Assembly (NCBI RefSeq): GCF_001293685.1
Contig: NZ_BCAG01000006.1
Location: 1 to 64,000, forward strand
Origin: Desulfatitalea tepidiphila
GTDB taxonomy: Bacteria > Desulfobacterota > Desulfobacteria > Desulfobacterales > Desulfosarcinaceae
Length of the DNA stretch: 64,000 bases
Reading direction: 5' to 3'
Numbering within the stretch: position 1 is the stretch's first letter; each line of letters opens with the position of its first letter. The notes under the pieces were generated by a model. The model searched no databases and was not told where the DNA came from. It saw only the letters and a program-made list of their open reading frames with translations. This document shows, one piece after another, positions 2,503-30,435 of this stretch. The translations under genes were made by a program, and so were the position numbers.

Positions 2503-2534
2503 TCCGACGCTTTCCACCCCTCTCCGGTAAGTAA
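2503..2534 (+). promoter_or_regulatory. Phage intergenic element, copy 1 (before portal)
   Basis: TCCGAC, then 15 bases, then CCGGTAAGTAA. It is the first of five intergenic copies with the same spacing (others at 9581, 14988, 23429 and 30404). This copy is the most divergent in the spacer. It is followed by a short GGCCC-ACAC-GGGCC hairpin and then the GTG start of the portal gene at 2609. Probable phage late promoter or operator; function is inferred from position and repetition only. Confidence 0.7.
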
Positions 2535-2608
2535 CCGGCATCGAGCCGGGTTCGGCCCACACGGGCCGGATGTGCGGCTGTCATGGCCGAAACTACCGAG
2601 AGGATCAC

Positions 2609-4117
2609 GTGGAAAGCACCGCTCATCAAGACGAACAACCCGAAAGCCTGGACACCACCGGCTTTGTCATCGCGCCGTTGGCCGCTGCGGCCGCGCTCGA
2701 CTCGGCAGCCTTCAGCAAGGTGAACGCCGCCGAAGCGATTCCGGCCACCTGGGAAGAACGCGCCCGCAAGGCCTGGGAATACTACGTCGAGGAGCCGCTG
2801 GTGAAGAACTGCGTCAACTCCTGGCGCACCTTCGCCGTGGGCGACGAGATCAAAATCACCAGCGATGACGAGAACCTAAAGGAGCAGGCCCTGGAGGCCG
2901 CCTGGCGGCTGAACGTCTCGCAGTTCATCAAGGACATGGTTCTTCAGCTTCTGGTGAAAGGTGACGCCATCGGCTTCAAGCGCTTCACCAAGTCCGGCCA
3001 GGACATCGAGGAGCTAGTCTGTGTCAACCCGGTTTCGGTCAAGGTCAAATACGCCCAGGGCGAACTGATCGAGGCCCGGCAATTTCCCGAGGACACACCC
3101 GGCGGCGGCGAATCCATTCCGCTGCCCGTCGAGCAGGTGGTCCACCTTAAATGGGACGCACCGGCCTTCTCGCCCCGGGGCAACTCCCTCGTGCTTCCCG
3201 CCTTTCAAGCCATCGAACTGCTGCGCGACTACCGCCGGGCCGAACAGGCCATCGCCAAGCGCTGGGCCACGCCGTTCCGCCTGCTCAAGGTGGGCGGCGC
3301 GTTCGGCCAGAAGATGGTGATGCCGGACCAGCGGATGCTCGAACAGGTCCGCGACATGGTCAACAAGATGGACATGAAAAGCGGCCTGGTGGTCCCGTTC
3401 TACGTCAGCGTCGAGACCCACGGCACCGACGGACAGGTCCTCAACGTCGAGGACAAGGTCAAGGAGGTGAAGGAAGACATCGTGGTGGCTCTGGGGCTGT
3501 CACGCTCGCTGGTGACCGGCGACGGTCCGAATTTCGCCACCGCCTCGGTGAGCATGCAGAAGATGATGGTCATGATCCGCGAGATCAAACAGGCCGCACG
3601 CAAGCTCCTCGACTGGGTGTTCGACGACTGGATGGAACTGAACGGCCATGGCGACAAGAGCATCCAGTTCATCTTCAACGACCTCGATCCCAGCGACGCG
3701 GTCGATTTCAAAAAGCTCCTCATCGAACTCTACGACCGCAAGCTCATCAGCCGCTCCAGCCTTCAGCTCAAGATGGACCTGGACCCGGACATCGAGGCAG
3801 CCAACCGCGAGACCGAACGCAAACAGATCGACCTGATGGACGAGAAGCAGGTGAAGCCGGTGGTGGATATGGTGGTCTCCGGCATCCTCAGCGTGCCTCG
3901 CGCCCGGAAGATGCTCGGGATTCCGGCCGAGGATGATGAACCCACGGCGGAGGCGGCATTAGTCTGGTCGGGCGACCTGGAGTCCACCGGCATTGCTGCC
4001 GTGTGCGACGAGTGCAGCCACTTCATTGCTGACACCAACCACTGCCGGGTCCACAACAGCGAGCGCACCTTCGACGCCCCGGCCTGTCGTTTCATCGACC
4101 GCCGGGAGCCCCGCTGA
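2609..4117 (+). CDS. Portal protein with C-terminal Cys cluster
   Basis: 502-aa portal, forming the dodecameric ring at the head vertex through which DNA passes and to which the tail joins. It has the usual alpha/beta portal body with a long central helical region (IKQAARKLLDWVFDDWMELNG) and normal length. The GTG at 2609 is chosen because GAGAGG precedes it; an upstream in-frame ATG at 2570 lacks a good ribosome site. The last about 35 residues carry C-x2-C-x9-C-x13-C, a possible zinc- or iron-sulfur-binding cluster that I do not know from ordinary portals. The stop overlaps the MuF gene start (TGATG). Confidence 0.85.
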   Translation: MESTAHQDEQPESLDTTGFVIAPLAAAAALDSAAFSKVNAAEAIPATWEERARKAWEYYVEEPLVKNCVNSWRTFAVGDEIKITSDDENLKEQALEAAWRLNVSQFIKDMVLQLLVKGDAIGFKRFTKSGQDIEELVCVNPVSVKVKYAQGELIEARQFPEDTPGGGESIPLPVEQVVHLKWDAPAFSPRGNSLVLPAFQAIELLRDYRRAEQAIAKRWATPFRLLKVGGAFGQKMVMPDQRMLEQVRDMVNKMDMKSGLVVPFYVSVETHGTDGQVLNVEDKVKEVKEDIVVALGLSRSLVTGDGPNFATASVSMQKMMVMIREIKQAARKLLDWVFDDWMELNGHGDKSIQFIFNDLDPSDAVDFKKLLIELYDRKLISRSSLQLKMDLDPDIEAANRETERKQIDLMDEKQVKPVVDMVVSGILSVPRARKMLGIPAEDDEPTAEAALVWSGDLESTGIAAVCDECSHFIADTNHCRVHNSERTFDAPACRFIDRREPR

Positions 4118-7100
4118 TGCCGTCGGACCTCAAGCAACGCATCCAGGCGGCCACACTGAAGAGTCTGACGGCCCGCAACCGCTACAACGACCAGGTCACG
4201 GCCCAGCTCACCCAGGCGCTGAAACAGGCCGAAGACGAGGTCGCCCGCGCCATCCTCCAGTACCGCTCTCTCGGCTCCCTGCCGGACAACAAGCTCGCCG
4301 CTCTCAAGGGGCTGGAAAAGCTCCAGCTCGAACTCGACGACACCATGAAGCGGCTCAAACGGGAGCAGACCCTGGTCTTTCGCAAGACGACCAAGGACTC
4401 CTTCAAACTCGGCATCCAACAGGGAATTGGAGAGCTCGCCGACGCGGCGCTGCCGTTCTACGCTGACCTGAAGCCCGAGGGCATCGACAAGTTGGCCACC
4501 AAGGTGTTCACCATCGTCGACACCAACGCCCTCGACTTCATGGCGCAGTACAACCTCACACTCGCCGGTGACGTCCACCGCGAACTCGCAGACGGCATCA
4601 AGCGCACCATCCTGAACGGCGTCGCCACGGGCAAGGGAGCCGACGACATCGTCCGGGACATGGGCAAGGTGATCATCGACAAGGACTCCTTTCGCCAGGC
4701 CGGAAGCCGGGTGTTCAGCAAGGCGCAGTACCGCATGGAGATGATCGCCCGCACTGAGGTCCTCCGCGCCCACAACATGGGCAGGCTCAAGTTCCACGAG
4801 CGTGTCGGCATCCAGAAACTGGAATGGCTGGCCATGGAGGACGAGCGCATGTGCCCGGTCTGCGGCGGCCTGGACGGCAAGACCTTTCCCATCGACAAGT
4901 TCCCCCAGCAACCCGCGCATCCGCACTGCCGCTGCACCAATATCGTGGCGTGGCCGATGACCGTCTGCGGCAGCGAGATGGTCGCCAAGGCCGCAGCCCA
5001 GGCATCGCAGGGGGACGCCTGCATTCTCCCGCCCCATGTGCTGGAAGGCATGGCCGACGCCCAGGCCAAGGAGAACGCCAAGCTCAAGAGCGCCTTTGAA
5101 AACGGCGACATCGCCGACCTCGGCTCGCTGACGGTTAAACAGCTCCAGACCCTGGCGAAGCAGAACGGCGTGGCCATTGCCCGGACCAAGGCCGATTTCA
5201 TCAAGCTGCTCGACCTGGCCGAACCCGGGATCGATCACGGTGACCTGGCCGGAGCGGCGCTCAGCGCCAAGCTCAAGGAACACAAGATCGGCCTGCTGCG
5301 GACCAAGGAAGAACTGGTCGAGCTGCTCGGACTGAAACAGGCGGAACTCAAACAGGCCAAGCTGCTCGCCGCCCAGATGGCGAAGATCCCTCCCGCCGAG
5401 GGGCTGGAGGGCATGACCGCCCAGCAGCTCAAGGAGATGGCGAAGGAGAACGGCATCTCCCTCAACATGACCAAACAGGAGACCATCGAGCTGTTGGACA
5501 AGCTGGAACCCGGCGTGGACCACAGCGGCCTGATGGGCAAGGAACTCGCGGCGGCCAAACAGAAGCACGGCATTGGCATCCTCAAGAACAAGCAGCAGCT
5601 CGTCGAGGCGCTGCAGAAGAAGGCCGGTGCCGACATGGCCGAGTCGGTCAAGAAAAAGGCGGTCGACGAGGCCAAGCTGAAGCTGATTCTGAAACAGAAA
5701 ACGGCCCTCGAAGACGCCGCCAAGGCCGTCGTCGTTCCCGACACGCCGAGCAGCTACAAGGATTTCCTCGACGCGATTGCCAAGGCGGAACAGGCGGTTT
5801 CCGGCGGCACAGATCTGCCCCAGGAGCTGCTCGCGGCCCACAGCAAGGAAATCGCCCTCAAAAAACAGCTCTTCCAGGATCAGGTCGGCAAACTGAAATC
5901 GGCGGAGCTCAAGACGCTCGCCAAGGAGACCAAGGTCCAGTATTGGCAGTGGGCCAACAAAGACGAGCTGACCACGCTCTTCACCGAGACCGATCCCGCG
6001 AAAATCAAAGCGGTTCAGGCCAGCATCGACACCAAGCACGCAGCCTGGGCCGAAAAGCATGGCGGCAAAAAGAAAACCGCTCCGGCCAAGCCCGCCACGC
6101 CGAAGAAAGAGCCACCGAAACCGGCTCCGCAGCCGATCCCGGTCAAGCCGCCCGAGCCCAAGATCGGCAAGAAAGGCGCGGAGTTCGCCACCGTCGATAC
6201 CGCGTGGCAGCAGAAGGGTCTGTCTTCGAAATTCAAGAAATCCGGCAAGGCCGCTGTCGGCGGCGCACACGAAAAGGAATTCTGGACCGATGAGAACGGC
6301 GACAAATGGCTGTTCAAGCCCATTGGCCGCAAGGACGATGAGTTCATCGCCTTCGGAGAGGAAGCCGCCTACAAGATCGGCCGCCTGATCGACCCCCATT
6401 CCATCGAGGTGCACACCATCCAATTGAATGGCCGCACCGGCTCCATCCAGAAATGGCGCACCGATCTGCGGGAAGACTTCGATTTTCGCAACATCCTGCC
6501 CCAGGATCTGACCACCATCGAACTGGAGCAGATCCAGCGCGAGCATGTGGTCGACTGGCTGATCGCCAATCACGACGGACATTCCAAGCAGTTCATCCGT
6601 GCCCGGGACGGTCGCGTCTACGGAATCGACAAAGGCCAGGCCTTCAAGTTTCTGGGCCAGGACAAGCTCTCGCTCGACTATCACCCCAACGGCGTCTGCG
6701 GCGAGGAAGAGCCGTTTTACAACAAGGTCTTCCGGGCGGCCAAGGAAGGGAAGGTACGGGTCGATCCGAACGCGACCCTTCGCTACATCCAGGAAGTCGA
6801 AAAGATCGCCGACGAGGATTACCTCGATCTGTTGCGGCCCTACGCCGAGGGACGGTTCGCCAAGGACCCGGCCGGGCTGCGGCATTTCTACGACCTGGCC
6901 CTGGAGCGAAAACACAATCTCCGGCGGGACTTCGAGGGCTATTACGCCGATGTGCTGGGGGATCGGGGTTTCCGCTTCGACAAGCTGAGTACCGCCACCG
7001 GCAAGAAAAAGCTGCTCTCCGCCGCCGAAGAGACCCTGGTCGAGGAGGCCCGCAAACTCGGCTGGCAGGGCAAGACGCTGCCCTTCGACAGCGGCGACGT

Positions 7101-8706
7101 GGAGGACCAAAACGCGCTGATCTTCACCGAGAGCTTCAAGGGGAAGAAGCGTACCGTGGTCAAGATGAAGATCCGGCCGGACACCGACCGCCGCATCGAC
7201 GAGGTGCTGCGCAGGTATGTGCAGACGGCGGCCGGGGAAAAGGGACAACCGCTGGTCGAAGACAGCTTCTATCCGACGATTCTGGACGCCGTCAAAAACG
7301 TCAACTTCCACGTGGGCGACGGCAAGTACAACCGGACCAAGATCGACAAGGCCCTGCGCCTGCGCAAGAAACTGGAGACTCTGCAGAAGAGCGCCGACCC
7401 CAAGGTCAAGGAGATGGCGGACCACTATCTGAAATGGGTGAAGGAGATTGAGGAGTCCGTCGATTGGGACCGGGCCACCAATGGCGTTTTCGAACAGTAT
7501 CTGCCCAAGCTCGACGCGCAGAAACCCAAGGAGAAACCGCCGTTCAAGGTGGAGCGCGGCAAGGTGACCCACACCAAGCGCAGGATCGGTTCCGGCACCA
7601 TCACTGTAGAGGCCGACGACATCGACAATCGGGCGCTGTTCAATCACAACTCCCGCATGCAGGACGGACACCAGTACACCGTCACCTTCGAGGACGGCAC
7701 CCGGGTCCGCTATCGCCCCTGGTCGGACACCAACCTCTATGCCCAGCGCGGCGAGCTGGAAATGATCCTGGAAGGCGACGCCACCCCCGGACGGGTCGAG
7801 GCGATGCTGGAAAAGCTCGAACAGCTCGGCATCGATACCCGGGTGGCCACGGCGGAAAACGCCGAGCAGATGTATCTCGAAAAGCTCGCCTACATCCGCA
7901 AGACCGACAAGAGCGCCGACTTCAAACGGCTGCAGAAATCCCTCGACGACCGCAACGCCACCACCACCGAGCGGGTTCAGGCTCTGCGCGGCTATTGGCA
8001 AAAGGAACTGGGTGTCCAGGACATCACCCAGCTTTCCGGGTACAACCCGCTGGGCGAATACCAGGCGGGCTTTCTGGACCGCGACGCCAAGGGCGGATAC
8101 CGGCACCAGTTCCGGTTCGACATCACCGAGGAGGACCTGGAAAAACAGATGAAGGGCTACTCGCTGGTCCACGATCTGACCAACGGCGAGAGCATGTCCG
8201 GCTTTATCGACTCGATCATGGAAAACAACGGAGCCATGGTCAGCACGGTCGAGAAGATGCGCATGGGCGTGGCTCCGGGCGGAATGTCCCCGGTGGCCGA
8301 CATGCAGACCGGTGGTGCGAGCTATTTCTTCACCCGAATCAAGAAGCAACCGGCCAGCGACGCCTCACCGGCCCTCTACTTCAAGAAACAGATGCTGCGG
8401 CGCATGGACGCCATCAGCTATGACCATGACGCCTACGGCAAGGTGATCGACGACTACGTGCAGCGCAACCGGGGAGCCAGCATCGATGATTGGAAGCGGT
8501 TCTCGCAACGCCATGGCAACGAAACCATCTTCAAATACTCGGTGACGCTGCTGGACAACATCGAGTTCATCGTGGCCAGAAGCGACAACGAACGCCGGGA
8601 GATCATCCAGAGTTTCACCCGGCGTGGCATCAAGAAACTGCCCGACGGGCGCAAGGTGGAGGACATCGTCCATACCTCGCAAAGCTGGAGCAAACGCAAA
8701 CAATGA
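4117..8706 (+). CDS. Giant MuF-type minor head protein with kinase-like domain
   Basis: 1,529 aa, far longer than the usual 250-450 aa Mu gpF/SPP1 gp7 minor head proteins. Order seen: N-terminal helical region; MuF domain around residues 200-285 with its hallmark CPVCGGLDGK and HPHCRC; three SAP/HeH-like repeats (about 335-370, 425-470, 590-625); a Lys/Pro linker (about 645-690); a HipA/phosphatidylinositol-kinase-like domain (about 700-900) with WLFKP, a catalytic-loop-like HVVDWLIANHDGH and GIDKGQAF; further unknown domains; and a conserved-looking C-terminal block after residue 1340. This is a polyvalent protein: MuF proteins are packaged in the head and can be ejected into the host, so the kinase is probably an injected effector (inference). 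It overlaps the portal stop and the next start. Confidence 0.8.
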   Translation: MPSDLKQRIQAATLKSLTARNRYNDQVTAQLTQALKQAEDEVARAILQYRSLGSLPDNKLAALKGLEKLQLELDDTMKRLKREQTLVFRKTTKDSFKLGIQQGIGELADAALPFYADLKPEGIDKLATKVFTIVDTNALDFMAQYNLTLAGDVHRELADGIKRTILNGVATGKGADDIVRDMGKVIIDKDSFRQAGSRVFSKAQYRMEMIARTEVLRAHNMGRLKFHERVGIQKLEWLAMEDERMCPVCGGLDGKTFPIDKFPQQPAHPHCRCTNIVAWPMTVCGSEMVAKAAAQASQGDACILPPHVLEGMADAQAKENAKLKSAFENGDIADLGSLTVKQLQTLAKQNGVAIARTKADFIKLLDLAEPGIDHGDLAGAALSAKLKEHKIGLLRTKEELVELLGLKQAELKQAKLLAAQMAKIPPAEGLEGMTAQQLKEMAKENGISLNMTKQETIELLDKLEPGVDHSGLMGKELAAAKQKHGIGILKNKQQLVEALQKKAGADMAESVKKKAVDEAKLKLILKQKTALEDAAKAVVVPDTPSSYKDFLDAIAKAEQAVSGGTDLPQELLAAHSKEIALKKQLFQDQVGKLKSAELKTLAKETKVQYWQWANKDELTTLFTETDPAKIKAVQASIDTKHAAWAEKHGGKKKTAPAKPATPKKEPPKPAPQPIPVKPPEPKIGKKGAEFATVDTAWQQKGLSSKFKKSGKAAVGGAHEKEFWTDENGDKWLFKPIGRKDDEFIAFGEEAAYKIGRLIDPHSIEVHTIQLNGRTGSIQKWRTDLREDFDFRNILPQDLTTIELEQIQREHVVDWLIANHDGHSKQFIRARDGRVYGIDKGQAFKFLGQDKLSLDYHPNGVCGEEEPFYNKVFRAAKEGKVRVDPNATLRYIQEVEKIADEDYLDLLRPYAEGRFAKDPAGLRHFYDLALERKHNLRRDFEGYYADVLGDRGFRFDKLSTATGKKKLLSAAEETLVEEARKLGWQGKTLPFDSGDVEDQNALIFTESFKGKKRTVVKMKIRPDTDRRIDEVLRRYVQTAAGEKGQPLVEDSFYPTILDAVKNVNFHVGDGKYNRTKIDKALRLRKKLETLQKSADPKVKEMADHYLKWVKEIEESVDWDRATNGVFEQYLPKLDAQKPKEKPPFKVERGKVTHTKRRIGSGTITVEADDIDNRALFNHNSRMQDGHQYTVTFEDGTRVRYRPWSDTNLYAQRGELEMILEGDATPGRVEAMLEKLEQLGIDTRVATAENAEQMYLEKLAYIRKTDKSADFKRLQKSLDDRNATTTERVQALRGYWQKELGVQDITQLSGYNPLGEYQAGFLDRDAKGGYRHQFRFDITEEDLEKQMKGYSLVHDLTNGESMSGFIDSIMENNGAMVSTVEKMRMGVAPGGMSPVADMQTGGASYFFTRIKKQPASDASPALYFKKQMLRRMDAISYDHDAYGKVIDDYVQRNRGASIDDWKRFSQRHGNETIFKYSVTLLDNIEFIVARSDNERREIIQSFTRRGIKKLPDGRKVEDIVHTSQSWSKRKQ

Positions 8707-9580: not shown

Positions 9581-9612
9581 TCCGACACATCGCCGACGCT
9601 TCCGGTAAGTAA
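9581..9612 (+). promoter_or_regulatory. Phage intergenic element, copy 2 (before methylase-protease gene)
   Basis: TCCGAC-N15-CCGGTAAGTAA with the common spacer ACATCGCCGACGCTT. It lies 57 bases before the ATG at 9669, and a GC-rich imperfect hairpin (CTCC..GGAG, about 9622-9641) lies between. See the copy at 2503 for the family. Confidence 0.75.
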
Positions 9613-9668
9613 CCGCAGAACGCTCCCCGCAGGTCGCGGAGAGCACAGCAAACTGACCGGAGACGTTG

Positions 9669-12077
9669 ATGGAACTGTTCGCCACAGACCTGGAAAGGCT
9701 GGCGTTTCTACTGGAGGCCGATGCGGCGCTGACTCTTGATCCCGACACGCTCGGGTCCGAGGCCGCCGAACAGTCCGCTCCTGAAGAGCTCCCTCCCGAG
9801 AAGCGCCCCAAGTACATCACCAACTACATCGGCAGTAAGCAGAAGCTCGTCGACTGGATCTGGAAGCATACCCCGGAGGGCACTGGCACGGTGCTGGATG
9901 CCTTTTCGGGGTCTGCGGTCGTGGCCTACATGTACAAGACCAAGGGCCTCCAGGTCATCGCCAACGACCGGCTCCGCTACTGCCACCACGCCGCCAAGGC
10001 GATCATCGAGAACAACTCGGTTCGCCTGAGCGAGGACGAGATCGAGGCGCTCCTGGCCGACAACGCCAAGGCGGGCAGCTTCGTTCAGGACAACTTCAAG
10101 GGCATCTTCTTCGCCAAGGGCGTCCATGCGCTGATCGACACCATCCGCGCCAACTGCGACAAGCTCTCCGGCTTCAAGAAAGACATCGCCCTGTTCGGCC
10201 TCGGCAAGACCTGCATGAGCGGCAAGGGTGGCTTTGGCCACTTCTCGTCGTCCACCGATTATGGCCGCCGCCAGGACACCCCCGACGAGTTCAAGGATCG
10301 CTTGCGCAAGAACCTGCAGCGCATCAACGCCCTGATCTTCGACAACGACAAGGAAAACAAGGCATACCGGCAGGACATCAACGAACTGCTGCCGAAAGCC
10401 AAGGCGGATCTGGCCTACTTCGATCCGCCCTACGCCACCGAGTTTTCGACCACCAACTACGAGCGGGCCTACCACTTCGTGGAGGGGCTCATGACCTATT
10501 GGGAAGGGCTCGAAATCAAGGCCGACACCAAGGTCAAGTATTACGAGACCGACCACAAGACCGTCACCAAGGCCAACGCCAACGAGTTCTTCCAGACCTT
10601 TCTCGGCAACGCCAAGCACATCCCGCACTGGCTGATTTCCTACCGCGATCACGCCTATCCCAACGAGCAGGAGATGAAGCGGATCATCGGCTCCTTCGGC
10701 AAGCAGAGCCGGATGAAGTCCAAGGATCACCACTACGCCATCACCTCCAAGCACGGCGAGGCATCCAACGCCAAGGAGCGTCTCTTCGTCTGCGCTCCCG
10801 GGGCCAAGGCCAGCGCCGAGCGGGAGGAAAAACCCGTTCCGATGGCCGCCGCCGCGAACTTCCACACCAGCATCCCCGTGGATATCCGGCTGGGCGAAGG
10901 CGAACGTCTCGCGACCGAGGCCATGGATGTCGGCTCGGCGGGCGACCCCCAGTTCAGCTTCGTGCTCTGCCGCACCGGGACCAACAAGAACGGCGACCAC
11001 TTCACCGCCGAGGAGTTGTCCGGTCGGCACATGACGGCCGTGAACAAGAAGGTCGATCTGCAGCATTCGCAGGAGTTCAACGACATCGTGGGCGGCATCG
11101 TCGCCGCCGACTACCTGGAGGACGACAACGGCGGCCGCGTGGAATGCGTCGGCGAGCTGTACGTTCACGACACCCCGGCCGCCCGGCTGGCCTACAAGCT
11201 GATGAAGCGCGGGATCATCTCCCAGGTCTCCATGGAATGCGACTACCAGGAGGGCGAATGCTCGGTCTGCCACAAGCGCTTCCAGAACAAGGCCGACTAC
11301 TGCACCCACCTGCGCAAATTCAAGGGCCGTGATGTGGGCGGCCAACCCGTTTTCGAGATTCTGCACGGCGTCACTTTCACCGGACTGGGACTGCTCGACC
11401 GCAAAGGCGCGGACGAGAACGCCAGGATTCTGCAGGTGGCGTCCCTTCAGAGCCAGCCCGACCAATCCCAACCCGAAGGAGATTCCACGATGGAAGACAA
11501 AACCAAACCTACCGATGACCCGGCAGCCAAGACTGAATCTGACGCGGCCAAGAAGAAACCGGCCCAGCAGGAAGGCGATCCTGCCCGCGTTACCGACCTG
11601 GAAAAGGAAAACCGGCAGCTCAAGGCCCAGGTCGCCGAGCTGCAGAAACGCGTCCAGGAATTGGAAGCCGAACAAAAGGCGGCCGCTTGCCGCTCCCGCG
11701 CCAAGAAGCTGCTCACCCGGCTGGAGAAGCAGGGGCTCTCCTTTGCGTCCGATGAGGACCGGGAAGCCGAGCTGAAACGACTGGCCGAACTGTCCGACGA
11801 AGCCTTCGCCGCCACCGAGGCCGCTTACGAGCGCCTGCCCAAATCGGCCAAGGCGGACAAGGACAAGGAAGAGAAACCCGCTGACAGCGACCAGGGCGGC
11901 AAGCCCGCCGCCAAGGCATCGACGGAAACCCCGCTGCGCAGCGACGCCGGTGTCAGGCCCCACGATGTGGACGACCGCAAGGTGTCGCTCGAGGACCGTC
12001 TGCGCGACGGGTTCATGGCCGCTTACCGCAACCGTGTCGGCGAGGACTCTCCCGAACACTCGCAAATCAACGCATAA
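9669..12077 (+). CDS. D12 adenine methyltransferase fused to prohead protease-like domain and scaffold
   Basis: 802 aa in three parts. Residues about 48-370 are a D12-class (Dam-like) N6-adenine DNA methyltransferase: NYIGSKQKLVDWIW, SAM-binding VLDAFSGSAVV (about residue 75-85) and catalytic YFDPPY (DPPY at 252-255). Residues about 375-600 resemble a phage prohead protease/peptidase region, with a CSVCHKRF..YCTHLRK Cys/His cluster near 531-550 and a hydrophobic VFEILHGVTFTGLGLLD segment. From about 608 on it is a charged coiled-coil scaffold. It directly precedes the decoration and major capsid genes, exactly where protease/scaffold genes belong. The protease assignment rests mostly on position and general pattern; the methyltransferase is certain by motif. 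Confidence 0.8.
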   Translation: MELFATDLERLAFLLEADAALTLDPDTLGSEAAEQSAPEELPPEKRPKYITNYIGSKQKLVDWIWKHTPEGTGTVLDAFSGSAVVAYMYKTKGLQVIANDRLRYCHHAAKAIIENNSVRLSEDEIEALLADNAKAGSFVQDNFKGIFFAKGVHALIDTIRANCDKLSGFKKDIALFGLGKTCMSGKGGFGHFSSSTDYGRRQDTPDEFKDRLRKNLQRINALIFDNDKENKAYRQDINELLPKAKADLAYFDPPYATEFSTTNYERAYHFVEGLMTYWEGLEIKADTKVKYYETDHKTVTKANANEFFQTFLGNAKHIPHWLISYRDHAYPNEQEMKRIIGSFGKQSRMKSKDHHYAITSKHGEASNAKERLFVCAPGAKASAEREEKPVPMAAAANFHTSIPVDIRLGEGERLATEAMDVGSAGDPQFSFVLCRTGTNKNGDHFTAEELSGRHMTAVNKKVDLQHSQEFNDIVGGIVAADYLEDDNGGRVECVGELYVHDTPAARLAYKLMKRGIISQVSMECDYQEGECSVCHKRFQNKADYCTHLRKFKGRDVGGQPVFEILHGVTFTGLGLLDRKGADENARILQVASLQSQPDQSQPEGDSTMEDKTKPTDDPAAKTESDAAKKKPAQQEGDPARVTDLEKENRQLKAQVAELQKRVQELEAEQKAAACRSRAKKLLTRLEKQGLSFASDEDREAELKRLAELSDEAFAATEAAYERLPKSAKADKDKEEKPADSDQGGKPAAKASTETPLRSDAGVRPHDVDDRKVSLEDRLRDGFMAAYRNRVGEDSPEHSQINA
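11490..12077 (+). CDS. Internal scaffold protein nested in the fusion gene
   Basis: An in-frame ATG at 11490 is preceded by GAAGGAG with a suitable spacer, starting MEDKTKPTDDPAAK, and would give a 195-aa acidic/basic coiled-coil scaffold (leucine-rich heptads in VTDLEKENRQLKAQVAELQK) identical to the C-terminus of the 802-aa protein. Nested scaffolds made from an internal start inside the protease gene are established in lambda (C/Nu3) and relatives. Here the ribosome site is as good as that of the neighbouring genes, so independent expression is likely. Confidence 0.6.
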   Translation: MEDKTKPTDDPAAKTESDAAKKKPAQQEGDPARVTDLEKENRQLKAQVAELQKRVQELEAEQKAAACRSRAKKLLTRLEKQGLSFASDEDREAELKRLAELSDEAFAATEAAYERLPKSAKADKDKEEKPADSDQGGKPAAKASTETPLRSDAGVRPHDVDDRKVSLEDRLRDGFMAAYRNRVGEDSPEHSQINA

Positions 12078-14987: not shown

Positions 14988-15019
14988 TCCGACACATCGC
15001 CAACGCTTCCGGTAAGTAA
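14988..15019 (+). promoter_or_regulatory. Phage intergenic element, copy 3 (before first tail gene)
   Basis: TCCGAC-N15-CCGGTAAGTAA, 25 bases before the TTG start at 15044. The spacer differs from copy 2 by one base (ACATCGCCAACGCTT). It separates head from tail genes. Confidence 0.75.
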
Positions 15020-15043: not shown

Positions 15044-15592
15044 TTGAGCACGATACAGACCGTCACAGAAACCCTGATCCGCCTGGCCAAGCAGGCCATC
15101 CACCCGGACACCGTTCTGGTGTTCCCGGATGACCTGTTCGAGGTCCAGCGCACCCCCAGCGTCATCCTCCAGGGGCCGAAGCTGACGGAAGACCGTTTCC
15201 GCCGCAGCCAGAGCCGCCTGTTCGAGAAGAATGTCGCGGAGCTGAGTTTCGAGGAGTGCCGGTTTCCCCGGCTCTATCACCTCGATTTCGATCTGGTGGT
15301 GACCGTGGACCGGGAAGCCGAACTACTCGGTTTTCACGAATCGGTGTCGCGGTTCCTCCAGCTTTACCCGGAGATCGCCATCGCCGACCAGGGCAGCCTG
15401 AACCTTACCGAACTGGTTCCTCTGGGCGGCCTGGCCCGGGTGAACCTCTCCAACCTCCGGCAAAGCTCCGGACGCATCCGCATTGAATCCTGCCCGGTGT
15501 ACGACGGCGACCTGCGCGACGGTCGGCTGATCCGGGACCGGACCTTCCAGTTTCACGGCGACGTGACAGAGCAACGAACCATTCAACCGTAA
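15044..15592 (+). CDS. Tail terminator-like protein
   Basis: 182 aa starting at a TTG at 15044 with GGAGG 8 bases upstream; no nearby ATG fits. Mixed alpha/beta with strong beta segments (LYHLDFDLVVTVD). It lies between the head-joining genes and the sheath, where the tail terminator (gpU/gp15-like) normally lies. Assignment by position only. Confidence 0.5.
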   Translation: MSTIQTVTETLIRLAKQAIHPDTVLVFPDDLFEVQRTPSVILQGPKLTEDRFRRSQSRLFEKNVAELSFEECRFPRLYHLDFDLVVTVDREAELLGFHESVSRFLQLYPEIAIADQGSLNLTELVPLGGLARVNLSNLRQSSGRIRIESCPVYDGDLRDGRLIRDRTFQFHGDVTEQRTIQP

Positions 15593-15864: not shown

Positions 15865-17394
15865 ATGCCGACCTATCTATCCCCCGGGATTTACACCCGG
15901 GAAACGGACTTCAGTTTCTATGTGAAGCAGATCTCGACCTCGTCGGCCGCCATGGTCGGGGTGGCCGAGAAAGGTCCGATCAACAAGCCCGTACTGGTGA
16001 CGAGTTGGGAGCAGTTCATCAACCGTTTCGGCTCCTATATCAACGAGAGCTATCTGGCCTACGCCGCCCGGGCGTTTTTCGACAACGGCGGCTCGGTCCT
16101 CTACGTCACCCGCATCGCCCATCTGACCGATCCCACCGACCGGGACACTCTGACGGCGTTCAAGGCATCAGTCGTCCTGCAGAACCGCGAGGCGACGCCC
16201 GCCGACGCCCTGCGGATCGAGGCCGTGAACGAAGGCGTCTGGGGCGACCGGCTCTCCATCTCCATCGAGGACGGCTCGCTCGACCCGGCCAACCATTTCA
16301 ACCTGGTGGTCCGTCATAAAGGCGATGTGGTCGAGGTGTTCAAGGATCTGAGCATGGACGAGACGCTGCCGAACCATGTGGAGCTGGCGATCAACGACCG
16401 CTCGGATTTCATCCTGGTCCAGGATCTGGCCGCAGCAACGGGAACGCCCGGCGACCGTCCAGGATTGGGCGTGTTCACGCTCAGCGGCGGCGACAACGGG
16501 CTGACCGATCTGGCCGATGCGGATTTCATCGGCGATCCCTCGCAGCATACCGGCCTCTATGGCTTTGACGAGATCGACGCCCTGAACCTGCTGATGGTCC
16601 CCGGCGTCACCACGGTGCCGGTGATCAACGCCGGAATCGCCTATGCCGAGGGGCGCAAGGATCTGCTGTTCATCGCCGACACGCCAATGCACCTGGAGCC
16701 GCTCGAAGCGGTCGACTTCCGCAAGGGACAAGGGATGTACAGCCACGCGGCCTTCAACTCCTCCTACGCGGCGCTCTACTACCCCTGGCTGGAGATCAGC
16801 GATCCGGTCAACTCGCGCAAGAAGCTGGTGCCGCCCTGCGGCGCGGTGGCGGGCTGCATCGCCCGCAGCGACCAGAAGACCAACGTCTGGAACGCGCCCG
16901 CCGGTATCGACCGTGGCCGCATCTTCAACACGCTCTCCCTGGCCTACAAGACCAGCCGTGGCGAGCGCGATGTGCTCTATCCGGAGGGGATCAACGTCAT
17001 CGCCGTGTTCCCCGACACCGGCATCAACATCTGGGGCCAGAAGACACTGCAGAGCCAGCCCTCGGCCGTGGACCGCATCAACGTCCGCCGCCTGATGATG
17101 TACATGGAGGAAGCCATCTCGGAATCCTCCCGCTTCGTGGTGTTCGAGCCGAACCATCCCCAGACCTGGCGTGCCCTCGGCCGCCTGATCAATCCCTTCT
17201 TGCAGGACATCAAGGACAAGGGTGGCCTCTACGACTTCGCCTTCCAGTGCGACGAGGAGACCAATACCCCGGCGGTCATCGACCGCAACGAAATGGTGGC
17301 CCGCGTGTTCGTCAAGCCGACCAAGACGGCGGAGTTCATCGAGCTGAACTTCATCCTGACCAGCACCGGCGCGGACTTCAAAGAAATCATCTAA
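15865..17394 (+). CDS. Contractile tail sheath protein
   Basis: 509 aa. The N-terminus (YLSPGIYTRETDFS) and the fragment VGVAEKGPINKPVLV..EQFINRFGSYI are typical of contractile sheaths, and the C-terminus has the conserved end with a RRLMMYMEEAISESSRFVVFEPN segment and a NPAVIDR-like TNTPAVIDRNEMVARVFVKPTKTAEFIELNF. This protein wraps the tube and contracts on infection, so the phage is a myovirus-type. Normal length. Followed after 15 bases by the tube gene. Confidence 0.93.
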   Translation: MPTYLSPGIYTRETDFSFYVKQISTSSAAMVGVAEKGPINKPVLVTSWEQFINRFGSYINESYLAYAARAFFDNGGSVLYVTRIAHLTDPTDRDTLTAFKASVVLQNREATPADALRIEAVNEGVWGDRLSISIEDGSLDPANHFNLVVRHKGDVVEVFKDLSMDETLPNHVELAINDRSDFILVQDLAAATGTPGDRPGLGVFTLSGGDNGLTDLADADFIGDPSQHTGLYGFDEIDALNLLMVPGVTTVPVINAGIAYAEGRKDLLFIADTPMHLEPLEAVDFRKGQGMYSHAAFNSSYAALYYPWLEISDPVNSRKKLVPPCGAVAGCIARSDQKTNVWNAPAGIDRGRIFNTLSLAYKTSRGERDVLYPEGINVIAVFPDTGINIWGQKTLQSQPSAVDRINVRRLMMYMEEAISESSRFVVFEPNHPQTWRALGRLINPFLQDIKDKGGLYDFAFQCDEETNTPAVIDRNEMVARVFVKPTKTAEFIELNFILTSTGADFKEII

Positions 17395-18707: not shown

Positions 18708-21700
18708 ATGAACGGCGATCTCGGACTGGGCATAGTGGTATCGATGAAGGATGCGTTCTCGCAGAACGCGCAGCGCATCCGTGGCTCCATGATGGACCTC
18801 GATTCCACCGTGGCGGATGCCAGTGAGCGGATGACCCGCAACCTGGACCGCATCCAGCAAGGGACCATGATGCTGGGGGCGGGACTGGCCCTGATGGCGG
18901 TGCCCGCCGCCCTGGTCGCTTCCACCGCCGCGACCCAGAAGGCCCTGGGAGAGCTGGCGTCCCTCGGCGTGCAGGACCTCCGGGCCATCGAGGACGCCGC
19001 AGAATCCTTCACCAACCAGTGGTCCGGTGCCGACAAGGCGGCGTTCATCACCGCCACCTACGACGTGAAATCGGCCCTGTCCAACCTCAGCGACGAGGCG
19101 GTGGGCGTCTTCACCTCCATGGCCGCCATGACGGCCAAGGCCACCAAGGCCACGACCCAGGAGATGGTCGGCACCTTCACCACGGCCTACGGGATCTTCA
19201 AGCCCATCATGGCCGACATGAACGACATGGAATGGGCGACCGCCTTTTCCGGAGCCATGGCGCAGACCGTGGCCTCGTTCAAGACCAACGGCACCCAGAT
19301 GGCCGACGCCATCAAGAACATCGGCGCGGTGGCGGCCGCGAGCAACATTCCCCTGAACGAGCAGCTCGCCGTGCTCGGCCAGCTCCAGACCACCATGCCC
19401 GGCTCCGAGGCGGGCACGCTGTACAAGGCGTTCATCATGAAGGCGGCCGAGGCCGGTGACGAGCTGGGCCTGTCCTTCACCGACACCAGCGGCCGCCTCA
19501 AGGGCGTGGTTCCCATCCTGCAGGAGATCAAGCGCCAGTTCCCCGATCTCTCCAACGCCGCCGCCCAGGTGAAGCTGAAGAAGGCCTTCGGCTCCGACGA
19601 GGCGGTCAAGTTCCTGCTGCAGATGTCGGCGGGCATGGAGAGCCTCGAAGGCAATATCCAGTCGGTGGGCCGGGCCATGAAGACCGGCACGGCGGTCACC
19701 GAACAGATGGCCGACGCCATGAACCAGGACATCGGAGCCCGGTTCCTGCTCCTGCGCCAGCAGGTGGCTAACCTCAGCGAAATCCTGGGACGCACTCTGC
19801 TACCGGCGGTGACGCCGGTGATCAACGGCGTCTCCCGCTTCATTCTGTTTCTGCAACGCATGGCTAAATCAATGCCGGGCGTGACCCGGGTGGTCCTGGG
19901 GCTGTCTATGGCCCTCGGCACCATTCTGGTTGTGGCCGGAGCCGTCACCGCCGCCGTGGGTATGGTGGGACTCATGCTGCCCGCCATCAAGGCCGGGTTC
20001 GTGGCCATCAGCGCCGCGCTCGCCGGAGTGGGTTCGGCGGTCGCGACCTATTTTCTGCCCGTAACCGCGATTATCGCTGGCGTGATCCTCTCGGTGTATT
20101 TGCTAAAACGCGCCTGGGAAACCAATTTCGGCGGCATCCAGGATGTCATCACCGGGGTCTGGAACAAGGTCTCGCTGGTCTTCCGGGGGATCAGGGAGCT
20201 GGTGGGCTCGCTCAGCGGCGGCGTCGGGCAGATGTCGGCCGAACTGGCCCATAAGCTCGAATCCGCCGGACTGCTGGGCTTCGTGGTCACCGTCTTCAAA
20301 GCCTATTATCGCGTTCGCGAAGCCTTGGCCGGATTGTGGGGCGCGTTTTCCCATGCCTTTGGCCGCATCCGCGCCATCCTCGAACCGACCGTCCGCACCC
20401 TGATGAGCGCCTATGCGGCGCTGGCCAGCGCGATCTTTTCGGTGGTGGAGATCTTCGGCGTGGCCGCCAGCGCCACCGACGGGTCGTCCTGGCGCACCTT
20501 CGGCACGGTTATCGGCACCGTCGCCGGTGTGCTTCTGCAGGGGCTGGCATTCGCGCTGAAGATCGTGGCCTGGAACCTGTCGCTCATCGTCCGAGCCCTG
20601 GCGGTGGTGGTGCGCAGCGTGGTCTGGGTCGGCAAGATCATCGTCGGGTCCCTGGTCGGAGCGGCCAAGTTCATCTACAAGTTACTGCTACCCGTGCGCA
20701 TGATCGGCGAGGCCTTCATGGCCGCCGGGAAGATCGTCTATTCCGTCTGGCAGGTGCTGACCGGCGACATCTCCCTGCTGGACGGTCTCAAGGCCATCGG
20801 CGGCGCTGTCTACGATTTTCTTGCCACCCCGTTCCGATGGGCGCGGGATGTGGTGGTCGGTGTCTGGAATTTCATTTCCGGCATCTTCACCTCCATCGGA
20901 CGCCTGGTGGCCGACGCCGCCGGGCAGATCGGCCAGGCGATTTTGAATCTGCCGATCATCAGCACCCTGCGGGATCTGTTTGCCACCGTGCGCTCCTTCT
21001 TCGCCGGGGACACCACCTTTTTCGAGGCGGGCAAGAAGCTACTGATCACCCTGGGTGAAGGGATCTGGTCGGCGGTGACCTATCCCTTCACCATGCTCAA
21101 GAACGCCTTGGGCAAGCTGCGCAATCTGCTGCCGTTTTCCGACGCCCGCGAGGGACCGCTCGCCAGCCTGACCGCCTCCGGCTCCGCGCTGCTCAAAACC
21201 CTCGCCGACGGCATGAGCCTTACCCAGACGCTGCCCGCGAAAGTGTTCGGCTTCGCCGCTCGCGGGATTCTCTCGGCCGCTGCGGGAGCCTGGCAGCAGA
21301 TCAAAACGGCAGGCGGAAACCTCATGGACGCCGCCTCGGCTCCTTTCCGGATGGCCGGAAAACTCTGGGACGGTCTGACCTCCGGGGCTCAATCCGTCGC
21401 GGCCAAGGCCGGTGCCATCTTCGGCGGTCTCAAACAATCCCTGTTTGGCGACACACCTGAGCTGGCGATCAAGCCGCCCCAGGTCAATACCTGGGACGCG
21501 CTGGCCACGGGAGCCGTCACTGTCCGTGACCGGATCGTTGCCACGCTGTCTGCCGTCCCCGGGGCTGTGGGCCGAATCTTTGCCAGTACCGGTACCGAAG
21601 GGCAATCCCTCTGGCAAAGGCTTTCCAGCGGCGCGAGCGCGGGCATTCAGGCGATCAAGGATCGCAGCGCCGGGATTGCCAACGGTTTACTGTCCTCCGC

Positions 21701-22343
21701 TCGCGCCATGCTGGGAGTCCAAGGACCGGTCCCGCAGGTGGCCGAGCAGAAGCAACCGCTCGGAGCTGCGCCGCCCGCCGAATCGATTGGCCAACGCATC
21801 ATCGAAAGCGTGCTCAGTCTCGTGCCGCGTCTGGACGAGCGCCTGGTGCCCAAGGCCCTCAGCGCCATGCTGATGCTCCAGCCGGTCATGGCCACGGCCG
21901 CGCCGCCTCCGCAACCGATGAACGGTACCGTGCAGACCGTCGCGGCGGCCGTCGAGCCGGTAAGTAAGAGCTATATCCAGCCGTTCGCGGTGGAACCGGC
22001 ACTGGAAAAGGGAGACGCCTCTCTGGCTCCGGCCGGGATCGAGCGGCCCATAACGGCCGCTCCGACTCCGATAGCGAAGCCCCTGCAATCCGGACTCGCC
22101 GAGACGGTGCCTTCCGAACGGTTGATTACTCCGGCCCGCACCGCTCCCGCGACACCCCTGTGGGGAGAGGACGCCGGTCCGGGTCTGCGCGAGCTTCTGG
22201 AATCGCTGCTCTCGCGCCTCGATGGTCTGGCCGACCGCCCGGTGGAACTGAGCGTGACCACCAACATCGATGGCCGGAAGGTGGCCGAGGCCGTCTACAA
22301 GGATCTTCGGGAGCGGAAGATCAGAAACTACGAAACACTTTGA
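18708..22343 (+). CDS. Tape measure protein
   Basis: 1,211 aa, sets tail length and may pass into the cell envelope during ejection. It has a TP901-type core near the N-terminus (about residues 90-330, including MTAKATKATTQEMVGTF), a long hydrophobic zone (about 390-470) with several transmembrane-like helices, further hydrophobic repeats to about 800, and a variable Ala/Pro-rich C-terminal third. It follows directly on the frameshift frame stop (TAGATG). The length would predict a tail of roughly 180 nm using the usual about 0.15 nm per residue relation (inference). Confidence 0.9.
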   Translation: MNGDLGLGIVVSMKDAFSQNAQRIRGSMMDLDSTVADASERMTRNLDRIQQGTMMLGAGLALMAVPAALVASTAATQKALGELASLGVQDLRAIEDAAESFTNQWSGADKAAFITATYDVKSALSNLSDEAVGVFTSMAAMTAKATKATTQEMVGTFTTAYGIFKPIMADMNDMEWATAFSGAMAQTVASFKTNGTQMADAIKNIGAVAAASNIPLNEQLAVLGQLQTTMPGSEAGTLYKAFIMKAAEAGDELGLSFTDTSGRLKGVVPILQEIKRQFPDLSNAAAQVKLKKAFGSDEAVKFLLQMSAGMESLEGNIQSVGRAMKTGTAVTEQMADAMNQDIGARFLLLRQQVANLSEILGRTLLPAVTPVINGVSRFILFLQRMAKSMPGVTRVVLGLSMALGTILVVAGAVTAAVGMVGLMLPAIKAGFVAISAALAGVGSAVATYFLPVTAIIAGVILSVYLLKRAWETNFGGIQDVITGVWNKVSLVFRGIRELVGSLSGGVGQMSAELAHKLESAGLLGFVVTVFKAYYRVREALAGLWGAFSHAFGRIRAILEPTVRTLMSAYAALASAIFSVVEIFGVAASATDGSSWRTFGTVIGTVAGVLLQGLAFALKIVAWNLSLIVRALAVVVRSVVWVGKIIVGSLVGAAKFIYKLLLPVRMIGEAFMAAGKIVYSVWQVLTGDISLLDGLKAIGGAVYDFLATPFRWARDVVVGVWNFISGIFTSIGRLVADAAGQIGQAILNLPIISTLRDLFATVRSFFAGDTTFFEAGKKLLITLGEGIWSAVTYPFTMLKNALGKLRNLLPFSDAREGPLASLTASGSALLKTLADGMSLTQTLPAKVFGFAARGILSAAAGAWQQIKTAGGNLMDAASAPFRMAGKLWDGLTSGAQSVAAKAGAIFGGLKQSLFGDTPELAIKPPQVNTWDALATGAVTVRDRIVATLSAVPGAVGRIFASTGTEGQSLWQRLSSGASAGIQAIKDRSAGIANGLLSSARAMLGVQGPVPQVAEQKQPLGAAPPAESIGQRIIESVLSLVPRLDERLVPKALSAMLMLQPVMATAAPPPQPMNGTVQTVAAAVEPVSKSYIQPFAVEPALEKGDASLAPAGIERPITAAPTPIAKPLQSGLAETVPSERLITPARTAPATPLWGEDAGPGLRELLESLLSRLDGLADRPVELSVTTNIDGRKVAEAVYKDLRERKIRNYETL

Positions 22344-23428: not shown

Positions 23429-23460
23429 TCCGACACCTCGCCATGCCTTCCGGTAAGTAA
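23429..23460 (+). promoter_or_regulatory. Phage intergenic element, copy 4 (before hub gene)
   Basis: TCCGAC-N15-CCGGTAAGTAA, 5 bases after the LysM gene stop and 30 bases before the ATG at 23491. The base after the core is G rather than C. A short GCAG-GGAA-CTGC hairpin follows. Confidence 0.75.
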
Positions 23461-23490: not shown

Positions 23491-24774
23491 ATGGATCTGG
23501 ATACCTTCAAACCGACATTTCTGATTCAGATCGAGGGGCACGACCTCTCGAAGGACATCACCCAGGAGATCACCTCGTTCGTTTTCACCGACAACGAGGA
23601 GGAGCTGGATGTTCTCGAGCTGTCGGTGACCGACCGTAACCTGCAGTTCGTCGACGATCCGCTGTTCCAGGAAGGCAACGAGATCGTGGCCCGCTTCGGC
23701 TACGTGGGGAACCTCTCTCCGCGCAAGAAGGCGGTCATCAAGGACATCGATTACGACTTCCCGGAAAACGGCGATCCGACCATCCGCATCAAGGCCTACG
23801 ACAAGGGCTTCAAACTCGCGGGCAAGGAAAACCAGAAGGTCTGGCAGAAACCCGCTCCCGGCATCCTCTATTCGGAAATCGCCGAACAAGTCGCTGCCGC
23901 CAACGGCCTCACCCCGGTGGTCACGGCCACCAAGGGAACCCATCTCCGCGTCACCCAGAGCAACATTTCGGATGCCCAGTTCCTCAAGGAGCTAGCGGAA
24001 AAGGCCCGCGACCGCGATGGCGACGGCGTGAGCGGCTATGTCTTCTACATCCAGGACGACGAACTCCATTTCCATCCCCGCGAGCTCGACCAGACGCCGC
24101 TTCTGACCCTCGAATATTTCACCGACACCAAGGGCCTGCTGCGCTCGTTCCGCCCCAGCACCCAATCCCAGGGAGCCAAGGGCGCGGGTGTCGAGACCAA
24201 GACGGTCGGCGTCGACCCGCGCAAGAAGGACGTGGTCGAGCACAAGGCCAACAACGCCAGTACGCCCGAGCGGACGGCCCTGGGCAAGCAGACCTATCTG
24301 GTCGACGGCAACACCGGCGAAGGCAGCTTCAAGGAACAGGAGACGGGGCAGATCGTGCCCAGCTTCGACCGCTCCGAAGGCTTTCACGAAGAGCCGCGCC
24401 AGGAGCCCGCCCAGGACAGCGCCGAAGGCAAGTTCCGCGAGGCCGAGCTGCGCCAGGTCGAGGCGGATGCGGCAACCATCGGCATTCCCCAGCTACGCGC
24501 CAAGAAGAACGTCGAGATCAAGGGCGTGGGCCGGAAGTTTTCCGGCATCTACTACTGCCACTCGGTGCGCCACAGCATCAGCGGCGCTGGCTATCTCTGC
24601 GAACTCAAACTCAAGAAGAACGCCCTCGGCAAGGGCGCGGGCGACAAGTCCGCCGAGTCCCAGGGCAAACCCAACGACAGGGAGGCCCCGCCCACGCCGC
24701 AAAACGAGCCGCCAGCCATGGTGACCATCGACGCGGATTCCGGCGCGGTCACACAAGGAGGCGGCAATGGGTGA
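23491..24774 (+). CDS. Baseplate hub protein, gpD-like
   Basis: 427 aa, gpD/late-control family (T4 gp27-like) which forms the hub beneath the spike. Typical parts are FKPTFLIQIEGHDLSKDI start, IKAYDKGFKLAG, a central SNISDAQFLKELAEKARDR motif shared by gpD proteins, and VGRKFSGIYYCHSVRHSIS near the end. The C-terminal about 55 residues form a Pro/Asn/Gln-rich linker. GGAGAG precedes the ATG; its stop overlaps the M15 peptidase start. Confidence 0.85.
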   Translation: MDLDTFKPTFLIQIEGHDLSKDITQEITSFVFTDNEEELDVLELSVTDRNLQFVDDPLFQEGNEIVARFGYVGNLSPRKKAVIKDIDYDFPENGDPTIRIKAYDKGFKLAGKENQKVWQKPAPGILYSEIAEQVAAANGLTPVVTATKGTHLRVTQSNISDAQFLKELAEKARDRDGDGVSGYVFYIQDDELHFHPRELDQTPLLTLEYFTDTKGLLRSFRPSTQSQGAKGAGVETKTVGVDPRKKDVVEHKANNASTPERTALGKQTYLVDGNTGEGSFKEQETGQIVPSFDRSEGFHEEPRQEPAQDSAEGKFREAELRQVEADAATIGIPQLRAKKNVEIKGVGRKFSGIYYCHSVRHSISGAGYLCELKLKKNALGKGAGDKSAESQGKPNDREAPPTPQNEPPAMVTIDADSGAVTQGGGNG

Positions 24775-27246: not shown

Positions 27247-27256
27247 GGGGAACGCC

Positions 27257-28572: not shown

Positions 28573-28584
28573 TGGGGGCTGTCC

Positions 28585-29475: not shown

Positions 29476-30392
29476 TGAGCTATGACTTTCTCGGCAAGGG
29501 ATTGCGCTACCCGTTCCGGTTTCAGTCGGTATCCGGCGGCACCCAGATCTCGGCCGCCACCTCGCGGGAGCACGAACATATCCGCGAAAGCATCCTGCAG
29601 ATCCTCGGCACCCGGATCGGCGAACGGTTCATGAATCCGGAGTTCGGCTCCAGGCTGAAGGATCTGGTGTTCGAACAGAACGACGAGGTGCTCAAGGGTC
29701 TGCTGCGCCATTACGTGATCGACGCCATCAAGCGCTGGGAAAAGCGGGTGATCATCACGGAGGTGCGCTTCGACGACCGGCCGCTGAACATCGACTGCAA
29801 CCTGCTGCTGGTGCATATCGCCTACCGGGTGATCCAGAGCCAGGTGGACGGCAACCTGGTCTATCCCTTCTACAGAGAAGACCCGAACAATCCCGCGCCC
29901 AGCTATCCCCAGCCGGAGCCCGAGCCGGAACCGCAGCCGGTGCGCAGCGTGCGCCTGTCGCCGGACGTGCGCTCGCTGTTCAATCTGCTCTGGTTCGACG
30001 CAGCCGAGATGAGCCCCGATCCGGACGATTCCTTCATCTGGCCAGCCGGGGAATACGAAGTCGCCTACATCGAGGGAGCCTATCAGGATCGCAACGGCAA
30101 ATGGATCGTTAGCGATCCGGGTGACAATCACGGCCATTACCTGGTCTTCAAGGGAGCACCTGAAACGGAAACGCCCCAGAGCGAGCATTCCCTCTATCTG
30201 GCTGCGAGCGGTCTGGGCTTCGACACCCAGAGCCAGGCGGAAGACAACGCCGCTGGCACCGTTCACCGGATCACCACGTCGGAGTCTGGTCGCATCGGCC
30301 TGTTCTATTTCGAGGGCAAGAAGGAATCCCACTACCTCAACAACACCTCCGGGCAGCCCAATCCCGTCTGGCAACTGCGCGGCCCGCTCTGA
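29475..30392 (+). CDS. gp25-like baseplate wedge protein with extra C-terminal domain
   Basis: 305 aa. Residues 1-130 are GPW/gp25: GTQISAATSREHEHIRESILQILGTRIGERFMNPEFGSRLKDLVFEQND, the conserved wedge core. A Pro/Glu linker (YPQPEPEPEPEPQP) at about 138-155 then joins an additional about 150-aa beta-type domain not usual for gp25 (typically about 110-150 aa alone). So this is a fusion. The extra domain is not recognised. Confidence 0.83.
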   Translation: MSYDFLGKGLRYPFRFQSVSGGTQISAATSREHEHIRESILQILGTRIGERFMNPEFGSRLKDLVFEQNDEVLKGLLRHYVIDAIKRWEKRVIITEVRFDDRPLNIDCNLLLVHIAYRVIQSQVDGNLVYPFYREDPNNPAPSYPQPEPEPEPQPVRSVRLSPDVRSLFNLLWFDAAEMSPDPDDSFIWPAGEYEVAYIEGAYQDRNGKWIVSDPGDNHGHYLVFKGAPETETPQSEHSLYLAASGLGFDTQSQAEDNAAGTVHRITTSESGRIGLFYFEGKKESHYLNNTSGQPNPVWQLRGPL

Positions 30393-30403
30393 GGCATCCC
30401 GCC

Positions 30404-30435
30404 TCCGACACATCCAGGCCCCTTCCGGTAAGTAA
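30404..30435 (+). promoter_or_regulatory. Phage intergenic element, copy 5 (before baseplate J)
   Basis: TCCGAC-N15-CCGGTAAGTAA with the inner sequence ACATCCAGGCCCCTT. Located 12 bases after the gp25-like stop and 57 bases before the ATG at 30492. It is followed by the hairpin at 30444-30466. Confidence 0.75.

Follow-up and report, generated by a model that had tools for sequence, protein, structure and literature searches.

The window analysed here, the whole 64,000-nucleotide (nt) stretch at positions 1 to 64,000 of Desulfatitalea tepidiphila contig NZ_BCAG01000006.1, holds part of a prophage in which a two-box element, TCCGAC-N15-CCGGTAAGTAA, recurs upstream of structural genes. The pattern has exactly five matches in the window, all on the + strand, with identical boxes (GTAnGTA forming the core of box 2) and a spacer of exactly 15 nt; 100 dinucleotide shuffles of the window gave a mean of 0 matches, with none in any shuffle. 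All five copies fall between open reading frames (ORFs), and the next start codon, as picked by script, lies 24-74 nt downstream. The initial annotation had placed five such copies in gaps before the first gene of structural blocks, and its coordinates, strand, boxes and spacing were all reproduced by the exact search. It had also described a spacer of constant length and variable sequence; the length is indeed 15 nt throughout, but the sequence is partly patterned, with four of the five spacers opening in ACA or ACC. A search allowing up to three mismatches added a single copy, with two mismatches, inside a long ORF (Table 1). The names portal, DNA methyltransferase, 'tail protein' and baseplate wedge are taken from PHROGs, the "tail start" label for ORF 15044-15592 was given solely since the tail sheath gene comes next, and 'tape measure' for ORF 18708-22343 reflects position and length, not a search. 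No phage record matched the window in a near DNA search.

The host genome comprises 5.6 Mb in seven contigs, the window's contig being C6. It contains 11 exact copies of the element, all within two related sigma-encoding prophages: prophage B has five on C6 and one on C5, and prophage A has three on C1 plus two on C2, a contig of 16 kb. We infer the joins of C2 to C1 and of C5 to C6 from homology and gene order, C2 being assigned to prophage A by its late genes, which are 97% identical. Another contig carries the sigma gene and the further element copies of the window's prophage. In both prophages a copy of the element lies 2 nt past the sigma stop codon; at locus L012, on C5, the stop codon is at L012:12456-12458 and the element starts at L012:12461. 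With up to three mismatches allowed, the pattern occurs at 33 places in the genome versus 12 for the reversed control. One near copy lies outside the two prophages, on C3, upstream of a DUF2924 gene (L014) that resembles a relict integration module.

In their early regions, both prophages carry the gene for a 194-residue sigma factor resembling the extracytoplasmic function (ECF) class. Its Sigma-70 region 2 (PF04542) scores 24.9 bits against a cut-off of 24, as for ECF (group IV) sigmas; in the 96% identical L015 sigma the same domain scores 23.0 bits, under the cut-off. The protein matches the profile phrog_1740, 'RNA polymerase sigma factor' (E 2.3e-25). A structure model built from 40 relatives has a mean predicted local distance difference test score of 73.3 and consists of helical blocks at residues 12-85 and 122-187 joined by a low-confidence linker, the second block aligning to AlgU region 4. 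The length, the two helical blocks and the lack of any further Pfam sigma domain fit a layout of regions 2 and 4 only, with no region 1.1 or 3. The best PDB matches of the model in Foldseek are the ECF sigmas SigH, AlgU, sigmaE and RpoE (E 5e-4 and weaker), and a profile search of PDB sequences finds AlgU and RpoE at E 8e-4 to 1e-3. The prophage sigma shares the two-domain layout of the cellular ECF sigmas (AlgU/SigH, SigE, RpoE), which are its best solved-structure matches, and differs from them in being phage-borne. Cellular ECF sigmas use a GGAAC-type -35, from which the boxes of the element also differ. The sigma28-like reader hinted at by the initial annotation is not what the prophage encodes.

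The element stays beside the sigma gene in relatives. Among 29 loci with a sigma match, it lies just after or by the sigma stop codon in 26, always with a 15-nt spacer although 14 and 16 were also permitted. A profile scan of a bacterial genome collection gave 65 sigma loci, with record titles including Desulfobacterota (Desulfosarcina, Desulfatitalea), Ectothiorhodospira, Pontiellaceae, Planctomycetota and others; many of these are metagenome bins, and L264-L268, near-identical across bins of different phyla, may be mis-binned. Of 62 loci, 41 have a match to a strict pattern close to the end of sigma, versus 107 of 12,342 background windows, some of the latter being real sites. Viral contigs contributed up to 80 more loci, and a set of 148 loci was reduced to 145 with a sigma ORF, 131 of full length with enough 3' sequence, and finally 75 representatives less than 90% identical to one another. 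De novo expectation-maximisation recovered the motif CCGACA / [CG]GGTA[AG]GTAA beside the sigma gene, with a score >5 in 65 of the 75. Its log-likelihood was 524-595 over spacers of 9-18 nt (574 at 15), compared with 49-59 in three letter-shuffled sets. Because the boxes can slide in register, this procedure alone cannot fix the spacing, and the boxes were therefore located independently, box 2 and then box 1, with leave-one-out: the N15 distance was found in 49 of 58 scorable representatives, the other nine being spread over six distances. Across 788 pairs at a sigma identity of 0.4-0.5, the boxes are 0.82 alike, the spacer 0.38 and the next 20 nt 0.30. Box variants that distinguish groups are CGAC/CGTC and GTAAGTAA/GTAGGTAT.

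Presence of the element also follows presence of the sigma gene. A strong sigma relative (E <= 2e-36) is found in 10 of 195 related genomes and a distant one in 1. With a slightly degenerate pattern, elements occur in 21 of the 195, namely all 10 strong-sigma genomes and 11 of the 185 others (Fisher p 2e-11, uncorrected for relatedness). The 10 strong-sigma genomes hold 67 of the 81 sites, and the reversed control has 2 matches across all 195. A scan of viral contigs gave at least 120 stretches; 31 viral records of at least 15 kb, chosen from the matches listed for having an element, contain 124 sites, with 0 for the control. These searches of relatives and of the whole host genome, which the initial annotation had proposed, agree with its reading of a two-box promoter or activator site.

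Sites precede the same genes in nine prophage groups, whose proteins are down to 48% identical to those of the window. The methyltransferase, the hub and the ORF after sigma are each preceded by a site in 8 groups, tail-start and baseplate in 7 and the portal in 4, contig ends truncating some of the groups. Past the ORF after sigma come exonuclease, Sak4-like annealing, single-stranded DNA-binding protein (SSB)-like and RecD2-like genes. In addition, a two-mismatch copy on the opposite strand at L012:7999 is directed at the DUF2924 and serine-recombinase genes. The earlier description as a late-gene element holds for the five structural blocks but is too narrow, as the element also follows sigma, precedes the exonuclease, annealing, SSB and helicase genes and, in its two-mismatch form, lies upstream of DUF2924 and the serine recombinase. 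Phage-specific promoters before middle and late genes of one genome, the mark of the phage-sigma family, are found here at the level of sequence.

Coupling between sigma residues and element bases was computed as background-corrected mutual information in 65 of the 75 representatives, under four weightings and three list lengths. At a weight threshold of 0.7, sigma2, with 80 of the 184 columns, accounts for 17 of the 20 strongest couplings of the -10 box (permutation p 0.0005), and sigma4, with 61 columns, for 12 of the 20 strongest of the -35 box (p 0.02). The spacer and downstream flank show no domain bias, with p never <0.12 over the 12 settings. The top -10 pairs involve E78, A79, T75 and S74 with -10 positions 1-2, and the top -35 pairs link Y175, D176, T172, M167 and L174, which in the model belong to the recognition helix of region 4, to -35 positions 1, 3 and 4. 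As box 2 couples mainly to sigma domain 2 and box 1 mainly to domain 4, the boxes behave as the -10 and -35 of phage-sigma promoters. The initial annotation had left open an alternative sigma or a phage activator as reader of a two-box site; the encoded sigma, together with the conservation, location and residue-base coupling that link the two, agrees with that proposal and points to the sigma.

In our judgement the element is very likely a promoter read by the sigma factor that the prophage itself encodes. TCCGAC would be the -35 element, touched by sigma domain 4, and CCGGTAAGTAA, with its GTAnGTA core, the -10 element, touched by domain 2, the inter-domain distance setting the spacer at 15 nt. 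Upon induction, the ECF-like sigma would bind host RNA polymerase and initiate transcription at the replication block immediately 3' of its own gene as well as at the blocks for head, tail, hub and baseplate. The outcome would be a coordinated lytic programme, of which we infer the timing and the induction step.

Several observations weigh against this assignment. Over the 12 settings, the coupling p values range from 0.0005 to 0.10 for -10/sigma2 and from 0.0075 to 0.10 for -35/sigma4. The null permutes column labels and ignores the tree, so that the residue-base coupling is strong and not conclusive. Region 4 (PF08281, Sigma70_r4_2) is matched at E 1e-4 and 22.3 bits, under the cut-off of 25.7. 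The sigma model has a predicted template-modelling (TM) score of 0.40, and its Foldseek TM-scores are ~0.3, as expected for two flexibly joined domains. A good site is absent in 10 of the 75 representatives, and three of the 29 sigma loci are without one: L038, L040 (an interrupted gene) and L041 (27% identity). Conversely, 11 related genomes carry elements without a strong sigma relative, and among the 31 element-bearing viral records a sigma is present in 13 and none in 18; site coordinates suggest that the latter contigs end short of the sigma locus. Finally, in Wolbachia phage WO, sites elsewhere than after sigma have a 14-nt spacer. As to L040 (genome G028), the sigma match ends at residue 118 while four elements are still present in the genome, which suggests an interrupted sigma in a decaying prophage.

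Fixed-spacing repeats before late operons would appear identical if the element were the site of a separate phage activator that aids host sigma70 polymerase, the sigma being incidental. Mor/C of Mu and Ogr of P2 are activators of this type, and one site type before several operons is how they act. However, the site adjoins the sigma gene and co-varies with sigma over the 75 representatives, its two boxes couple to sigma2 and sigma4, respectively, and Pfam searches of ten early-region proteins, with some early ORFs outside the scan, found the sigma and no Mor/C-type activator. We regard an activator site as improbable.

The position of the element at gene-block boundaries, where phage modules swap, would also suit a DNA-level signal for recombination or packaging, or a module-exchange seam, that happens to sit in gaps. 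Against this, its orientation tracks the downstream gene, including the opposite-strand DUF2924/recombinase copy and the divergent WO sites, and coupling to residues in sigma domains is not expected of such a signal, which makes this explanation still less probable than an activator site. G+C-rich inverted repeats are seen by eye past some copies (e.g. 2533-2590) and would fit a role in RNA, as a processing site, leader or terminator, rather than as a promoter. Yet conservation is confined to two short boxes, with a freely drifting spacer between them and no conserved stem, and the distance from element to start codon varies. A function in RNA is the least probable of these explanations.

The same pair of sigma and probable promoter recurs in prophages of very different bacteria, including phage WO from Wolbachia, an insect symbiont. 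Among annotated phage records, a sigma relative is present in seven only, all of them phage WO (Wovirus), at 24-27% identity. Like the prophage sigma, WO sigmas match phrog_1740 (E 7.5e-27 and 1.3e-27), and a cognate two-box site lies 3' of sigma in all seven records. In four it reads TTGGAC or GCGGAC-N15-[CT]CGT..ATATA; in these records, similar sites with a 14-nt spacer lie before the divergent operon in all four and before a third gene block in three, the fourth record being short. The other three have TTGAAC-N15-C[CT]TG[TA]ATATA after sigma, one site each. These patterns were composed after viewing the sequences, and the reversed controls gave 0 or 1 match per record. WO differs from the prophage in its sigma sequence, its TTGGAC or TTGAAC box, its A+T-rich -10 and its spacer of 15 nt after sigma and 14 nt elsewhere; an AAA_24 gene follows sigma directly in WO and is the third gene past sigma in the prophage. 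According to a review, the targets of the additional small sigma factors in Wolbachia 'remain to be determined' (PMC7397232), and a Wolbachia start-site study describes sigma70-like motifs only and little phage transcription (PMC12558409).

The class of mechanism is already known, since gp36 of phage phiEco32, an annotated ECF sigma, falls in the same PHROG as the prophage sigma (phrog_1740, E 1.9e-45). By BLASTP the two proteins align over 23 residues only (E 0.018). We take the phiEco32 -10 word to be TAATGTATA, which has GTA-type ends in common with the element motif; it occurs 4 times in 49 kb, where 0.3 are expected. Both phiEco32 and Salmonella phage 7-11, for which phage-sigma promoters are described in PMC4331800, encode a sigma that has promoters of its own upstream of middle and late genes. 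They are lytic podophages, whereas the prophage carries a serine recombinase and contractile-tail genes and has a -35 and a -10 at fixed spacing, with one site fixed behind the sigma gene. A search of open-licence literature turned up no report of promoters belonging to the sigma in these prophages or in WO, nor of the temperate family, a bipartite code coupled to sigma residues, the site behind sigma or the link to WO; among the matches listed for the sequence words of the element there was no relevant paper title.

Table 1. Coordinates of the element copies, the genes they precede and associated features
Feature	Position	Strand	Details
Element 1	2503..2534	+	TCCGAC 2503-2508 (-35-like), N15, CCGGTAAGTAA 2524-2534 (-10-like); upstream of portal, start GTG 2609
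Element 2	9581..9612	+	same boxes; upstream of DNA methyltransferase, start ATG 9669
Element 3	14988..15019	+	same boxes; upstream of ORF 15044-15592 and tail sheath gene, start TTG 15044
Degenerate copy	21936..21967	+	both mismatches in box 1; in-frame in 1211-residue ORF 18708-22343; status uncertain
Element 4	23429..23460	+	same boxes; upstream of tail hub-like protein, start ATG 23491
Element 5	30404..30435	+	same boxes; upstream of baseplate wedge protein, start ATG 30492
Portal protein, first gene past element 1	2609..4117	+	phrog_2739, E 8.9e-83 (for 2570-4117); start 2609 by script
DNA methyltransferase, first gene past element 2	9669..12077	+	phrog_27806 (as 9666-12077)
182-residue ORF, first gene past element 3	15044..15592	+	no PHROG match; sheath (phrog_23) at 15865-17394
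Tail protein (hub-like), first gene past element 4	23491..24774	+	phrog_52, E 7.3e-47
Baseplate wedge protein, first gene past element 5	30492..31901	+	phrog_219, E 1.1e-49 (for 30441-31901)
Sigma gene, prophage B	C5:469873-470457		outside window
Sigma gene, prophage A	C1:1029845-1030429		outside window
Sigma leader	L012:11640-11873 (own genome, C5); L014:5167-5381		23 aligned leaders
ORF family of ~62 residues	L166:8276-8464	-
	L168:1258-1446	+
	L171:8653-8844	+
	L209-L229

Sigma genes of this group carry a conserved 5' leader that ends in a Shine-Dalgarno hairpin and for which Rfam has no family. It comprises two hairpins and a third stem; the loop of this stem, GTGGGTG, pairs with a CACCCAC close to the start codon. 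In the 23 aligned leaders this structure, drawn from the same 23 sequences used to score it, is 91% paired versus 28-41% in slid versions. Cells with changes on both sides number 18, compared with 7.3 in shuffled alignments, and none of 500 shuffles reaches 18; two other covariation measures stay within the shuffles (pairs with both-side changes, 96/500; further pair types, 483/500). Both leader arms are found by a strict pattern in 17 of the 75 representatives, and at L014 and L174 the leader comes after a phage-sigma element.

At L012:4261-4614 and 5453-7039, the prophage serine recombinase lies ~0.8 kb beyond the transfer-messenger RNA (tmRNA) gene, and the prophage is for this reason probably located at ssrA. 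On the - strand of the window, positions 58639-58650 hold a 12-nt sequence like the end of ssrA, AAATGGTGGAGG, beside a tyrosine integrase gene (58730-59539, -), with a flank resembling L166. A one-mismatch search found this single match in the window, yet 23 of 100 shuffles had at least one; the site is a possible far end of an ssrA island. Elsewhere, ORF 4117-8706 of the window encodes 1529 residues with an N-terminal minor-head domain and a long match to phrog_6577 (unknown function), and L011:7079-7150 matches the Pseudomonas small RNA P10 in Rfam (score 38 versus a gathering threshold of 37).

Among 389 genomes of the order, 21 contain an ORF of ~62 residues, and elements are found upstream of this ORF as well. 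The ORFs lie at the ssrA 3' end or by type I restriction genes, behind one phage-sigma element or two in tandem. An element with up to two mismatches occurs within 260 nt upstream on the same strand in 16 of the 21 and on the opposite strand in 0 of the 21, and of 14 such loci that were scanned, 7 have a tmRNA gene. Six element-bearing cassette genomes are without a credible sigma. Plain chance was rejected as the explanation for seven of the 11 element-without-sigma genomes, which hold the 62-residue cassette; of the other four, G108 and G054 look from neighbouring sequence like phage fragments, and G146 and G178 are left over. Neither PHROGs nor Pfam gave a significant match for the 62-residue protein. 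It may be an ordinary phage gene product: its gene occurs in two viral records, neither of which matches the relaxed site pattern, with an element-like sequence upstream in both. A working role of the cassette is called into question by in-frame stops in the ORF in 8 of the 21 genomes, and close copies may be recent transfers. Tentatively, and with the balance somewhat against it, the phage sigma/promoter code, across many bacterial phyla, may also be read by non-phage ssrA cassettes, which would be inactive until the arrival of a phage with the sigma and would then serve as phage-triggered satellites or defence genes.

The proposed pairing of -35 and -10 with sigma4 and sigma2 assigns, from sequence alone, a promoter code to a widespread sigma family of temperate phages. 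In uncultured prophages, the element would serve as a sequence tag by which to locate the regulon. It also provides concrete predicted targets for Wolbachia's small additional sigma factors, and the lytic switch of phage WO therefore becomes directly testable.

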